Shown in pieces: positions 1,097 to 62,287 of a stretch of 64,000 bases of DNA. This DNA is from Uliginosibacterium aquaticum (GTDB taxonomy: Bacteria; Pseudomonadota; Gammaproteobacteria; Burkholderiales; Rhodocyclaceae): contig NZ_JABCSC020000003.1 in NCBI RefSeq assembly GCF_012972705.2, forward strand, positions 310,001 to 374,000. Direction: 5' to 3'. Position 1 is the stretch's first letter. Every line of letters starts with the position of its first letter. The position numbers were made by a program, and so were the translations under genes. The notes below the pieces were generated by a model. The model saw only the letters and a list, made by a program, of their open reading frames with translations. It ran no database searches and was not told where the DNA came from.

Positions 1097-2101
1097 ATGG
1101 ACAGGAACGAAACGGCAGGGAACGGCGAGATGCCCCAGCGGGCGCTGGTGCTGGGGGCTTCGGGCGGGGTGGGCGGCGAGCTGGCGCGCGAGCTGCTGCG
1201 GGCGGGCTGGCAGGTGCGTGGCCTCAAGCGCGGGCTGGGCGTGCCGCGCCTGTTGCGTGACGGAATCGAATGGCTGGACGGCGATGCGCTGAAAGAGGCC
1301 GATGTGCTGTCTGCCGCCGAGGGTTGCGCGGTGATTGCGCATGCGGTGAATCCGCCGGGTTACCGCAACTGGGGCGAGCTGGTCTTGCCGATGCTGGCCA
1401 ATACGCTGGCGGCGGCGCGTCAGCAGGGCGCCACGATCCTCTTGCCGGGCACGGTGTACAACTATGGTCCGGACACTTTCCCGCTGATTGCGGAGGATGC
1501 GCCGCAGGCGCCGATCACCCGCAAGGGGGCGATCCGGGTCGAGCTTGAGCGCCGTCTGCAGGCGGCGGCGGAGGCCGGCGAGCTGCGGGTGATCATCGTG
1601 CGGGCCGGCGATTTCTTCGGGCCGCAGGCGCGCAACAGCTGGTTTTCGCAAGGCATGCTGAAGCCGGGGCGGGTGCCCAGCGCCATGCAATGGCCGGGTC
1701 GCCCCGGTGTGGGCCACCAGTTCGCCTATCTGCCGGATGTGGCGCGCACGATGCGGCGTCTGCTCGAAGTGCGCGAGCGCCTGCCGGCCTTCAGCCGCTT
1801 CAATATGGCCGGTCACTGGGATCCGGATGGCCGTGCCCTGGCGCAGGCGGTGTGCCGCGTGTTGCAGCGCCGGGGGCTGGCCGTGCCGCGGCTGAAAGCC
1901 TTTCCGTGGTGGCTGATGCGGCTCGCCGCGCCCTTCGTGACGACGCTGCGCGAGCTGCTGGACATGCGCTACCTGTGGCAGACCGAAGTGCGCATGACGA
2001 ACGCGCGTCTGCTTGAAGTGCTGGGCGAGGAGCCGCATACCCCGCTGGACGAGGCCATCGAGGCGACGCTGGTAGGCATGGGCTGCCTGGCGCAACGCTG
2101 A
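1097..2101 (+). CDS. NAD(P)-binding Rossmann-fold protein, extended/atypical SDR (epimerase-like)
   Basis: A 334-residue protein with the dinucleotide-binding motif GASGGVG at residues 20-26. The body resembles NAD-dependent epimerase/dehydratases (GTVYNYGP after the fourth strand, and RAGDFFGP). The YxxxK catalytic pair of classical SDRs is not evident: the expected place reads TRKGAIRVELE. It may be an atypical reductase or a non-catalytic NADP sensor. The ATG at 1097 has an AAAGGAG ribosome-binding site seven bases upstream; the longer frame from 998 runs through the promoter and was rejected. It is the likely target of the divergent LysR regulator. Confidence 0.8.
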   Translation: MDRNETAGNGEMPQRALVLGASGGVGGELARELLRAGWQVRGLKRGLGVPRLLRDGIEWLDGDALKEADVLSAAEGCAVIAHAVNPPGYRNWGELVLPMLANTLAAARQQGATILLPGTVYNYGPDTFPLIAEDAPQAPITRKGAIRVELERRLQAAAEAGELRVIIVRAGDFFGPQARNSWFSQGMLKPGRVPSAMQWPGRPGVGHQFAYLPDVARTMRRLLEVRERLPAFSRFNMAGHWDPDGRALAQAVCRVLQRRGLAVPRLKAFPWWLMRLAAPFVTTLRELLDMRYLWQTEVRMTNARLLEVLGEEPHTPLDEAIEATLVGMGCLAQR

Positions 2102-2263
2102 GAGTGGAGGGGCGTGCACTGCCTGTCGGGCCGGGCGAACCGTCTGGCTCGCTGCGCCAGAAATGCGCAATCCTGGTCAAGACAATGCGGAGGTCTGGTC
2201 ATAAGGTCGCCGGGCAGTTCCCAAAACCACAAGGGCATACGCCCGCGATCACGGAGACGATCA

Positions 2264-3574
2264 ATGCACACAACTCATTCCCTGCGCTTCCTGGGCAGTC
2301 TCATGCTGGGCTTCTCGGCGGCGGCTTCGGCCGGCACCTATTACGTGGCCCCGGGGGGTAGCGATACTGCGGCCGGCACCCAGGCCGCTCCCTGGAAAAC
2401 GCTGAGCCGCGCCCAGACCAGTGCCGTGGCGGGTGACACCGTTTACGTGCGCGGCGGCACCTACACCATCAAGACCGGCGTGAACAGCTGCGCCTCGCAG
2501 ACCGATGTGGTCAATGCCATTCTGCTCAACAAGAGCGGGGCTACCAGCAATCCGATCAAATACTGGGCCTACCCCGGTGAAACGCCGGTCTTCGATTTCA
2601 GCAAGATGACGGACAACTGCCGCGTGAAGGGCATCAACCTCAGCGCCTCGTGGGTGCACCTCAAGGGGCTGGAGATCAAGGGCGTGCCGCAGGGTAACTA
2701 CCTGAACCACGAATCCTGGGGCGTGTGGGTGAATGGCAGCCGTAATGTGCTGGAGCAGCTGAATGTGCACAACATCATGGGGGCCGGCGTGTTCATCCAG
2801 AACGGCGGTTACAACCTGGTGCTGAACACCGATTCGCACGATAACTACGATCCCAAAACCTCCAACGGCGCAGGCCAGAGCGCGGACGGTTTCGGAGCTC
2901 ACATCAAGGCCAGCAATCCCGGCAATGTGTTCCGCGGTTGTCGCGCCTGGAACAACTCCGATGATGGCTTCGATCTCATCAACGCCTATTCCAGCGTGAC
3001 CATCGAAGATTCCTGGGCCTGGTCGCACGGTTACCTGCCGGGCACCACCGCTTCGCTGCCAGCCGGCAACGGCAATGGCTTCAAGATCGGCGGCTACGGC
3101 GGTGTGTATGTGGCCGGCGCGCCCAAGCACATCGTGCGCAAGTCGGTAGCCTTCAACAACAAGGCCAGCGGCTTCTATGCCAATCACCACCCGGTGGCGA
3201 ACGACTACTTCAACAACACCGGCTACAACAACGGCATCGATTTCAACCTGCTCGGCATCGATTCCAGTGGCGCGGCGGTGAACCTTGGCACCCTGCGCAA
3301 CAACATCGCGTACAAGGGCAGCCTGCTGGCTAACAACGCGGGCGTGAACACGCGCTACAACAGCTGGGATGCGGCTACCGGGGTGTCCGTGTCGGATGCG
3401 GATTTCCAGTCGGTGTCGACCAGCGGCTGGGATGCCGCCCGCCAGTCCGACGGCAGCCTGCCAGTGTTGAGCAAGCTGCGCCTGGCCAGCAGCAGCGACC
3501 TCATCAACAAGGGGGGCGACGTAGGCCTCAGCTACACCGGCTCTGCACCGGATCTGGGCGCCTTCGAGCGCTGA
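2264..3574 (+). CDS. Secreted pectate lyase, right-handed beta-helix, PL9 type
   Basis: A 436-residue protein with a signal peptide (cleavage likely after AASA, residue 23) and a mature start AGTYYVAPGGSD typical of PL9/PelL-type enzymes. Repeating beta-helix turns follow. The family's calcium-binding aspartates can be placed at D208 (SADGF), D233, D234 and D237 (NSDDGFD), and the lysine general base at K274 (NGFKIGG), matching from memory the spacing in Pel9A. It would cleave polygalacturonate by beta-elimination outside the cytoplasm. The start at 2264 has GGAGA upstream, and the signal peptide begins there. No other pectin genes are nearby. Confidence 0.82.
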   Translation: MHTTHSLRFLGSLMLGFSAAASAGTYYVAPGGSDTAAGTQAAPWKTLSRAQTSAVAGDTVYVRGGTYTIKTGVNSCASQTDVVNAILLNKSGATSNPIKYWAYPGETPVFDFSKMTDNCRVKGINLSASWVHLKGLEIKGVPQGNYLNHESWGVWVNGSRNVLEQLNVHNIMGAGVFIQNGGYNLVLNTDSHDNYDPKTSNGAGQSADGFGAHIKASNPGNVFRGCRAWNNSDDGFDLINAYSSVTIEDSWAWSHGYLPGTTASLPAGNGNGFKIGGYGGVYVAGAPKHIVRKSVAFNNKASGFYANHHPVANDYFNNTGYNNGIDFNLLGIDSSGAAVNLGTLRNNIAYKGSLLANNAGVNTRYNSWDAATGVSVSDADFQSVSTSGWDAARQSDGSLPVLSKLRLASSSDLINKGGDVGLSYTGSAPDLGAFER

Positions 3575-60601: not shown

Positions 60602-61942
60602 TCAGCGCAACCAGCCCTTCTTGTTGAAGTACCAGAAGGGGACGAGCACCGAGAACAGCATCAGGAGCAGGGCGAAGGCGTAGCCGTGGCTCCACTCCAG
60701 CTCGGGCATGTACTTGAAGTTCATGCCGTAGAGACTGGCGATCAGGGTCGGCGGCAGCATGGCGACGCTGGCCACCGAGAAGATCTTGATGATCTTGTTC
60801 TGGTTGATGTTGATGAAGCCGACGGTGGCATCCATCAGGAAGTTGATCTTGTCGAACAGGAAGGCGGTGTGGCCATCCAGCGACTCGATGTCGCGCAGGA
60901 TCTGGCGTGCATCTTCCTGCTGATCCTTGGACAGGAACTTGCCGCGGATCAGGAAGGACAGGGCCCGGCGCGTGTCCATCACGTTGCGCCGGATGCGCCC
61001 GTTCAGGTCCTCTTCGGCGGCAATCGCGGCGAGGATCTTGGCGGCCTGGGTGTCGGTCATCTCGGTGCTGAGCACCTGCTTGCCGACGGCCTCGAGCGAG
61101 GCATACACATCTTCGAGGGTATCGGCGGAGTACTCCACATCGGCGGCGTAGAGGTCGAGCAGCACGTCCTTGCCGTCGGACACATAGCCCGGCTGGATGC
61201 GCGCACGCAGGCGCTGCAGACGGAACACCGGCAGCTCTTCGTTGCGGATCGAGAACAGGATGCCGTGATGGAGCACGAAGGCCACCGCCACGTTGCGCGA
61301 CTCATCCGCCTTGTCGAGCAGGAAGTCCGAGTGCAGATGGATCTGCTCGCTCTCATCCTCGATGTAGAAGCGCGCCGATTCTTCAAGGTCGGTGAGGTCT
61401 TCCGGGTCCGGCAGGGAGAGGCCGAACACCTGCTTCACCCACTCCAGCTCTTCCTTGTCCGGCGCGATCAGGTCCACCCAGATCGGTTTGGCGGCGGCCA
61501 GTGCGGCGCGCGTCTCGATGTTGATCTGACGCAGGCGTCCGTTGTGCAGCTCGAAGGCGTTGAGCATCAGCGGCTTGCGCTCGGGCTGCTCGGGTTCCGA
61601 GGTGAGGGTGTCGCGGAAATCGTCCGACGAGAGTTCGTCGAGAATTTCTTCCCCGCGCGCGGCCTTGACCAGCTCCCACACCACCACGCTCTCGTTGTGC
61701 GGCAGGGCTTCGAGGATGCGGGCGATCTCGGCGGCGTCGAGGGTATCGAGTTTCTTCTGCAGCTCGACCAGATTCTGGCGGTGCACGAGGCCGTCCACCA
61801 GGTCGTGGCGGGGCATCTCCTGGCGCCTGACCAGGTCCTCAACCAGGCGATGACGGCCGAGCAGGCCCTGCACTTCCAGCAAGTGTTGCTGGAAGAGCTC
61901 GTTCTCATCGACTTCGGGCTGGAGGTCTTCGTTTTCGGTCAT
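60602..61942 (-). CDS. CorA magnesium transporter with MgtE_N-like extension
   Basis: A 446-residue protein. Residues 40-110 resemble the MgtE N-terminal helical domain (LVHRQNLVELQKKLDTLDAAEIARILEALPHNESVVVWELVKAARGEEILDEL). Residues 130-380 are the CorA cytoplasmic funnel, and the C-terminus has two membrane helices with YGMNFKYMPELEW (the GMN pore motif) and a basic end KKGWLR. E. coli CorA is 316 residues. It should conduct Mg2+ into the cell; the extra domain may add regulation. Its 5-prime leader is an unusually structured 267-nt segment that would bury the start site. Confidence 0.87.
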   Translation of the reverse strand: MTENEDLQPEVDENELFQQHLLEVQGLLGRHRLVEDLVRRQEMPRHDLVDGLVHRQNLVELQKKLDTLDAAEIARILEALPHNESVVVWELVKAARGEEILDELSSDDFRDTLTSEPEQPERKPLMLNAFELHNGRLRQINIETRAALAAAKPIWVDLIAPDKEELEWVKQVFGLSLPDPEDLTDLEESARFYIEDESEQIHLHSDFLLDKADESRNVAVAFVLHHGILFSIRNEELPVFRLQRLRARIQPGYVSDGKDVLLDLYAADVEYSADTLEDVYASLEAVGKQVLSTEMTDTQAAKILAAIAAEEDLNGRIRRNVMDTRRALSFLIRGKFLSKDQQEDARQILRDIESLDGHTAFLFDKINFLMDATVGFININQNKIIKIFSVASVAMLPPTLIASLYGMNFKYMPELEWSHGYAFALLLMLFSVLVPFWYFNKKGWLR

Positions 61943-62209
61943 AGGGTCTGCTCTCGGTAGTCAGACGGATCACGTTGCCACATCTGGCCTGCGGGACAAG
62001 GCATGGGACGCAGTGCGGGGTGGCGCCCCGCACAAGGAGCATAACGCAGTAGCGCAGGCCAGATGTGGCAACCCGCAGGGCTCGTTTGATTCCGGCGCAT
62101 CACTACGTTGCCCTTCCTTGCAAGGGGGCCACCCTTGCTGCGTCAGGGCGCCTTGTGCTGCATCCCGAATCAGACGAGCGTGACCGCCTGACTACCGAGA
62201 GCAGACCCT
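61943..62209 (-). promoter_or_regulatory. Highly structured corA leader: candidate cis-regulatory RNA
   Basis: Read on the minus strand toward the corA ATG, three long helices form a junction. P1: 62189-62209 pairs perfectly over 21 bp with 61943-61963, the bases touching the ATG, with five more pairs (62179-62183 with 61970-61974). P2: 62164-62179 with 62080-62095, 14 of 16 pairs. P3: 62053-62072 with 61974-61993, 20 perfect pairs, capped by an eight-pair GC stem (62013-62020 with 62026-62033). P1 hides the only purine-rich ribosome-binding candidate (GAGAG). It matches no riboswitch I know; an inserted repeat element is the alternative. Confidence 0.6.
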
Positions 62210-62287
62210 TGGCCCCGTTGGAAAGGCGGAATTCTACGCGTGAATGTCGCGATGCAGCAGTTTCCTGGCGGCCTTTGCCAAGGCTGC

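Follow-up and report, generated by a model that had tools for sequence, protein, structure and literature searches.

Introduction

The M-box (ykoK) and mgtA leaders are 5′ leaders of Mg2+ transporter genes. The element described here is like them in sitting 5′ of a Mg2+ transporter gene but is unlike them in being dispersed and transposon-like and in having no Rfam match. Another set of systems with which it has to be compared is the MITEs. IS5-derived MITEs are already known, as examples BrickBuilt, MITE293 and MITE700 of Porphyromonas gingivalis (PMC4596501), and according to the available part of that report they share with the present element predicted long stem-loops and terminal inverted repeats that resemble the ends of IS5-family IS. 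For the P. gingivalis MITEs, these are IS5-family IS of their own genome (PMC4596501). The stem-loops of BrickBuilt come from direct repeats (PMC4596501); in contrast, the element described here has a near-constant length of about 262-279 bp, a three-way junction and two mutually inverted arms, and it occurs in many genera.

The Coxiella element QMITE2, as far as the accessible text of PMC10969869 describes it, is also short, with terminal inverted repeats of 23-29 bp, and has a stable folded transcript, but differs in its direct repeats of 7-9 bp and its core of 113-145 bp. REP and the palindromic GTAG and CGTC repeats (PMC3733652) are similar in being dispersed palindromic DNA, and the GTAG and CGTC repeats are also present in Thauera and Thioalkalivibrio (PMC3733652). 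However, REPs are 20-40 bp long and carry a GTAG or CGTC tag that stays unpaired (PMC3733652) while the present element is about 265 bp long with paired, transposon-like ends and YTAR flanks. Identity with REPs was rejected on its length (267-279 nt) and its paired ends. No description of the element family was found in the literature searched, which was mainly open-access, with ISfinder beyond reach, and which included the available portions of PMC3733652. PMC9012009, which names both Thauera and MITEs, was considered as a description of the element and rejected since the content seen there is unrelated. The family looks undescribed, although IS5-derived MITEs as a class are known.

The element was found in a stretch of 64,000 nucleotides of a Uliginosibacterium aquaticum contig (NZ_JABCSC020000003.1, positions 310,001 to 374,000), hereafter the window, whose own numbering is used throughout. 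An initial annotation had described the 267 bases before corA as a leader that controls this gene. We consider the stretch to be, very probably, a copy of a non-autonomous IS5-type MITE which was inserted at a YTAR-like site before the corA ATG in this lineage.

The corA locus

The gene adjoining the element (60602..61942, minus strand) encodes a 446-aa protein that is identified as CorA (PF01544, 203.5 bits against a cut-off of 27), and the element was inserted into the leader of this gene. The closing stem of the element lies directly against the corA ATG (61942-61940, minus strand), in agreement with the initial annotation, which had placed the start codon at the foot of this stem. At this locus, a TAGAAT box is separated from the ATG by 21 nt followed by the 267-nt element. 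In four corA loci of the genus (L120, L121, L122 and L125) the TAGAAT box is found 25-27 nt before the corA ATG. Because the element is located between this shared box and the ATG, it is probably transcribed with corA as part of its leader, to which it is predicted to add a very stable block of 267 nt. A transglycosylase gene (PF00912; 62288-63037, minus strand) was observed upstream of corA, and the end of a similar gene was seen by eye before corA in L121, L123 and L125.

A Shine-Dalgarno-like GGGG (62213-62216, minus strand) is followed by the element and then by the corA ATG, so that the old GGGG would lie across the helix foot from the ATG, where it could bridge or block initiation. This arrangement bears on an exaptation reading, in which a chance insertion now affects corA through the GGGG-ATG proximity, lowered translation or RNase III. 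The frame of corA is open with the element between GGGG and ATG, and MITE transcripts form stable stem-loops whose effects on expression are discussed in a review (PMC10969869, available part). However, no outward promoter was found in the element by a consensus scan, and we regard such an effect as rather unlikely. The same kind of scan gave one terminator-like site, which is located outside the element. Under the preferred MITE reading, any effect on translation at corA would be a by-product of insertion.

Architecture and predicted fold

The whole copy as first outlined (61943..62209) has the ends AGGGTCTGCT...AGCAGACCCT, which were set by the common ends of 16 full copies of 267-279 nt in an alignment. 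When the convention for IS5 is followed, the element itself spans 61945-62207, with the ends GGTCTGCT...AGCAGACC. It is flanked on the left by a putative target-site copy ATAG (61941..61944), which overlaps the corA start codon, and on the right by CTTG (62208..62211); each is one change away from the YTAR of the other copies. Since these target copies are imperfect, no clean duplication is visible at corA.

The closing stem (helix 1) is made up of a 5′ half at 61943..61973 and a 3′ half at 62180..62209 (both given on the plus strand), as supported by the fold, by arm complementarity and by covariation. The terminal arms at 61943-61968 and 62184-62209 (26 nt) are 96% complementary. Judged from IS ends in other genomes, the first 12-17 nt or so of the 5′ half appear to be an IS5-type terminal inverted repeat, with the 3′ half carrying the right one. 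Arm 2 (61974..62072, plus strand) is a long GTTG...CAAC hairpin formed by helices 2-5, with conserved inner motifs, a GC tip and 20 perfect outer pairs. These outer pairs (61974-61993 with 62053-62072, 100% complementary) are the perfect 20-bp stem with a GC cap that had been noted before. Between the arms, a mini hairpin CC-GCA-GG (62073..62079, plus strand) forms helix 6, and both of its pairs were observed to be invariant in the 15 distinct rows of the alignment A1 described below. Arm 3 (62080..62179, plus strand) is a hairpin whose inner motifs are the reverse complement of those of arm 2.

The inner motif was recognized by eye in the alignments as approximately ACAAGGnG...ACGCAG. Each arm has two directional copies, on the plus strand in arm 2 (61996..62013, ACAAGGCATGGGACGCAG; 62032..62049, ACAAGGAGCATAACGCAG) and inverted, on the minus strand, in arm 3 (62103..62120, CAAGGAAGGGCAACGTAG; 62138..62155, CAAGGCGCCCTGACGCAG), giving an overall order of + + - -.

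The minus strand of 62215-61930 was predicted to fold into a three-way junction with a free energy of -183.5 kcal/mol, while shuffled sequences have a mean of -113.5 (sd 5.34), giving a z of -13.1; none of 200 shuffles folds as well. The earlier claim that this long-helix fold is beyond chance is thus borne out. The minimum-energy fold and the centroid fold agree for this stretch. No Rfam match reached the gathering threshold in the window, and the only matches were MIR1858 (E 7.5) and sR38 (E 8.8), both at chance level, in line with the earlier statement that it holds no known Mg2+ riboswitch. A conserved coding frame was not seen by eye in the alignments of the copies, and the frames that enter the element come from flanking DNA.

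Copies in the genome and the corA loci of relatives

A query of the own genome with the 267 bases gave 15 rows, three of which are the corA copy's own inverted repeats, and these correspond to 12 separate places. The other 11 copies are 67-78% identical to the corA copy. All but one of the 12 copies are full length, the exception (L006) being cut at its right end. Sixteen full copies (267-279 nt) from the own genome and those of relatives could be aligned over their whole length, and their consensus ends are AGGGTCTGTT...AACAGACCCT; an IS5-style reading of this consensus gives GGTCTGTT...AACAGACC flanked by YTAR. Three further remnants were found beyond the 12 places. One of them is a 53-bp stub (G000:C10:110319-110371; L152, L163) in which the closing stem alone is present and both arms are gone; it has the look of a deletion by slippage at the junction base. 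Lone element ends at G000:C8:646783-646796 (L147) and G000:C6:835978-835991 (L157) look decayed or truncated.

Strong homologues of corA were found in six of seven other genomes of the genus (L120-L125), with a partial match (L126) in the seventh, G006. At these seven loci, blastn gives the element no match with an E-value below 0.086, while the own locus gives 3.9e-139. Since the corA loci of the relatives are without the element while the TAGAAT box is common, the insertion at corA probably took place after the split from the genus relatives.

These data bear directly on the leader reading of the initial annotation, taken here as a cis-acting Mg2+-responsive switch for corA in which the closing stem masks the start site until a signal opens it. 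The position between the shared TAGAAT box and the ATG, where the stretch is probably transcribed, and the very stable stem that abuts the ATG are consistent with such a switch. Against it stand 11 further loci of the own genome with related copies, six corA loci in the genus that lack the element, the lack of an Rfam match at gathering and the agreement of minimum-energy and centroid folds. The dispersed copies and the corA loci of the six relatives argue that the stretch is no corA-specific leader. A switch that evolved to control corA is largely refuted, and we consider it very improbable. The alternative that the same annotation had offered, an inserted inverted-repeat element, is supported by the dispersed copies and by the IS5-like ends. 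That annotation had named many identical copies at unrelated loci, or related corA leaders without compensatory changes, as evidence against a leader. The leader reading fails this check, with copies that are 67-78% identical, though not fully so, at many unrelated loci, and with corA loci in the genus that have no such structure.

Covariation and symmetry of the arms

Compensatory changes were measured in A1, which consists of 15 distinct rows after exclusion of the truncated L006 and the short partial L011, L014 and L015. In A1, 67 of the 91 pairs were changed on both sides, as compared to 30.9 (sd 3.2) in shuffles, and paired cells form 95.9% against 78.6%. There were 220 both-sided cells (54.6 in shuffles) and 27 one-sided cells. 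None of 500 shuffles reaches the observed value in any of five measures, although the shuffles overstate independence because the rows of A1 are related. When partners were slid by 1-3 columns, 14-25 pairs were obtained. In helix 1, 22 of 30 pairs were changed on both sides and 95.3% of cells are paired. The compensatory changes expected of a corA leader are thus present, but as a property of the dispersed element and not of corA leaders.

The strong covariation (67/91 pairs) would fit a functional structured RNA family that is dispersed as genes, with compensation reflecting selection on RNA; the near-constant length (262-277 bp in 53 resolved copies) and the wide spread also agree with this. 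In A1, G-T cells outnumber A-C cells in both arms (23:4 and 25:7), a count to be read with the A1 structure having been derived from RNA energies. However, when the arms of 96 copies were compared in a fold-neutral way, 72 G-T and 99 A-C cells were counted in the closing stem. A-C is thus at least as common as G-T in this stem, and the absence of a G-T excess argues against both an RNA family and the corA leader switch. Overall, both strands of the closing stem are about equal, and Thioalkalivibrio alone has 7 G-T against 23 A-C.

In the arms, an excess of T.G in arm 2 and of C.A in arm 3 is clear in Thioalkalivibrio, Ectothiorhodospiraceae and the own lineage and weak in 45 other copies (29 against 22 in arm 2 and 20 against 35 in arm 3). 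This mirrored excess fits a two-fold symmetric DNA, in which arm 3 reads as the reverse complement of arm 2, whereas C.A would be a mismatch in RNA. Three counts run counter to the DNA reading, namely the weak bias of the 45 other copies, the 7 to 23 cells in the closing stems of Thioalkalivibrio and the G-T excess in the arms of A1. The relation between the arms is seen in their mean alignment score, which is 14.5 when arm 3 is reverse-complemented, 6.6 when compared directly and 6.9 when shuffled (n=96). In many of the copies matched by the arm-3 model, a second match falls on arm 2, on the other strand. Together with the ratio of 220 both-sided to 27 one-sided cells and the terminal repeats and YTAR targets, the mirrored bias makes a structured RNA family improbable. 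The few one-sided changes and the complementarity of arm 3 to arm 2 favour DNA-level symmetry or homogenisation of the arms, so that the compensated fold points to one of these rather than to RNA sensing.

Homogenisation may go without any function of the complementarity. Template switching between inverted-repeat arms homogenises them and has been reported in many organisms (PMC8604942, as far as available). The few one-sided cells and the closing stem without overall strand bias are what such a process would leave, and it is compatible with the MITE reading. However, distant hosts also have the inner motifs, the mini hairpin and the total length in common, and homogenisation alone is insufficient to explain this. 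We regard complementarity kept purely by template switching as possible, if somewhat short of even. In copies from Polaromonas, Acidovorax and Comamonas (L022, L030, L048, L072 and L113), arm 3 was observed to keep the family motifs while arm 2 is without them and has a different inner sequence, showing that the two arms can evolve apart; the search pattern behind these five copies required arm 3 and the converse case would escape it.

In the MITE reading, the two arms, with their + + - - motifs of about 17 bp each, may form a two-fold symmetric DNA module. The module could serve as a protein-binding array, or it could fold as a single strand during replication or transposition. Its complementarity would be kept by selection on this DNA fold or by arm-templated correction.

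Ends, target sites and candidate transposase partners

The target of IS5 is YTAR (PMC10359306, available part). In the aligned copies of the own lineage, whose ends were set by alignment, the left flank is CTAG in 10 of 16. Outside this lineage, YTAR flanks both ends of 21 of the 53 resolved copies and one end or both in 48, counts that lean upward because YTAR was part of the score by which the ends were chosen. The two target copies match directly at all four positions in 13 of the 53 and at three or more in 33, where both YTAR and duplication were scored in end-finding. CTAG and TTAA are palindromic, so that many apparent 4-bp duplications are indistinguishable from a longer inverted repeat.

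The tips were found to be lineage-specific among the copies from other organisms. Of 26 transposase loci, both ends match in two, one end matches by computation in L180, and the rest show no match. The first of the two is from Thioalkalivibrio sp. AKL19 (L189), where an uninterrupted frame of 342 aa (1462-2490, minus strand) encodes an IS5 transposase (NF033581, 306.4 bits against a cut-off of 140) and is enclosed by IS ends that differ from the MITE ends GGAAACACTGATTAATG by 1 and 2 mismatches of 17. The second is an IS of Gallionella (L173), each end of which departs from the MITE end at 3 of 16 positions. This IS is flanked by CTAA left and right, and its transposase frame, shortened to 230 aa, matches NF033581 positions 1-207 of 285 (288.1 bits). 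By eye, the ends of a Polaromonas PF13340 locus (GAGCCTGTCTACGAT) also look similar to those of the MITE (GAGCCTGTTCACGAT).

The own genome was searched for an autonomous partner, and none was found. Neither PF13340 nor PF05598 has a match there, and the one match of PF01609 (25.9 bits, just over the cut-off of 23) is without matching ends. By eye, the 87 sites of the genome within two mismatches of the end motif include no facing pair at IS spacing. From the ends and the target, an IS5-family transposase would act in trans; it would cut where the closing stem has its conserved tips and insert the element at YTAR.

Spread across other bacteria

A pattern search gave 98 hits, some of them by chance, consisting of 97 stretches of genome contigs and one viral hit. 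The hosts include Thioalkalivibrio, Ectothiorhodospiraceae, Gallionella, Thiobacillus, Marinobacterium, Polaromonas, Pseudomonas, MAGs of Verrucomicrobia and others. A permissive arm test found the same anatomy in 80 of the 98 hits; some of the 18 failures are contig ends. Folding and end-finding could be applied to 75 hits, and in 53 of these the ends were resolved, including two Verrucomicrobia MAG copies (L054 and L078). The viral hit (L118), the sole one among viral contigs, fails the arm test and was rejected.

For the A2 set, L053 (Streptomyces) and L109 were dropped, as they passed the arm test but look by eye like chance or decayed matches, along with hits offering fewer than 120 nt; once redundancy was removed, 50 of 89 remained, and the arm-3 model was built from 50 sequences. 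R1 held 18 pairs only, and the search E-values are rough. At the family level, the arm-3 model was found in 135 of 297 genomes and 47 of 68 genera at E<=1e-3, where matches near 1e-4 may be chance. At the class level, it was found in 37 of 185 genomes and 36 of 177 genera at E<=1e-6. Copy numbers per genome are lower bounds, with as a rule 12 (family) or 19 (class) candidates scored in each genome.

The window's own version has no plasmid copies. A Pseudomonas relative (L093) was found in four plasmid records (one of Pseudomonas, two of Azotobacter and one of Halomonas) and in no phage record. In the conjugative IncP plasmid NZ_CP017294.1 of P. aeruginosa (L186, 5001-5268), a relative was observed between CaiB/BaiF and acyl-CoA dehydrogenase genes, about 2 kb beyond an IS1071 transposase.

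Insertion at stop codons

In 32 of 69 copies (6/11 own, 2/5 relatives and 24/53 others), a frame that is open for at least 150 codons has its stop codon in the last three bases of a target copy, with end-finding for the 53 outside copies having favoured YTAR, which itself places TAA or TAG at the site. Elsewhere in the 30 bases before the target, 3-base bins contain such stops in 0-5 of 69 copies. Because the target motif itself supplies TAG or TAA, the share in the window is a fairer background; in this one window of one genome, 3 of 16 CTAG and 10 of 56 YTAR sites end a frame of at least 150 codons. The excess at stop codons is about 2.5-fold and may come from the loss of insertions inside genes.

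As examples, the element starts directly after a stop codon in its own target site in L002, L004, L005, L007, L008 and L017 and in 26 of 58 copies from other genomes. In L063, the target sites on both sides supply the stop codons of two convergent frames. The corA copy is unlike these copies in that it touches a start codon.

Implications

An element with 67 of 91 compensated pairs would probably pass screens for structured RNA. The mirror-image wobble pattern and the IS5-like ends point to DNA, which makes the element a warning case for riboswitch hunting and, more generally, a warning against taking covariation as proof of RNA function.

A broader reading, which we put forward tentatively and hold to be somewhat doubtful, is that of an old superfamily in Pseudomonadota and some Verrucomicrobiota. 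It would have one interior of about 265 bp, taken as the three-way junction with its mutually inverted arms and four directional ACAAGGnG...ACGCAG motifs, and tips that adapt to the IS5-type transposase of the host, together with a preference for stop codons at which duplication of the target keeps the stop. If this were true, the interior would be a module for recognition or replication that has a partner protein of its own. The near-fixed size and shape under changing tips allow the needs of a transposase or host protein in the interior of the element to be probed.
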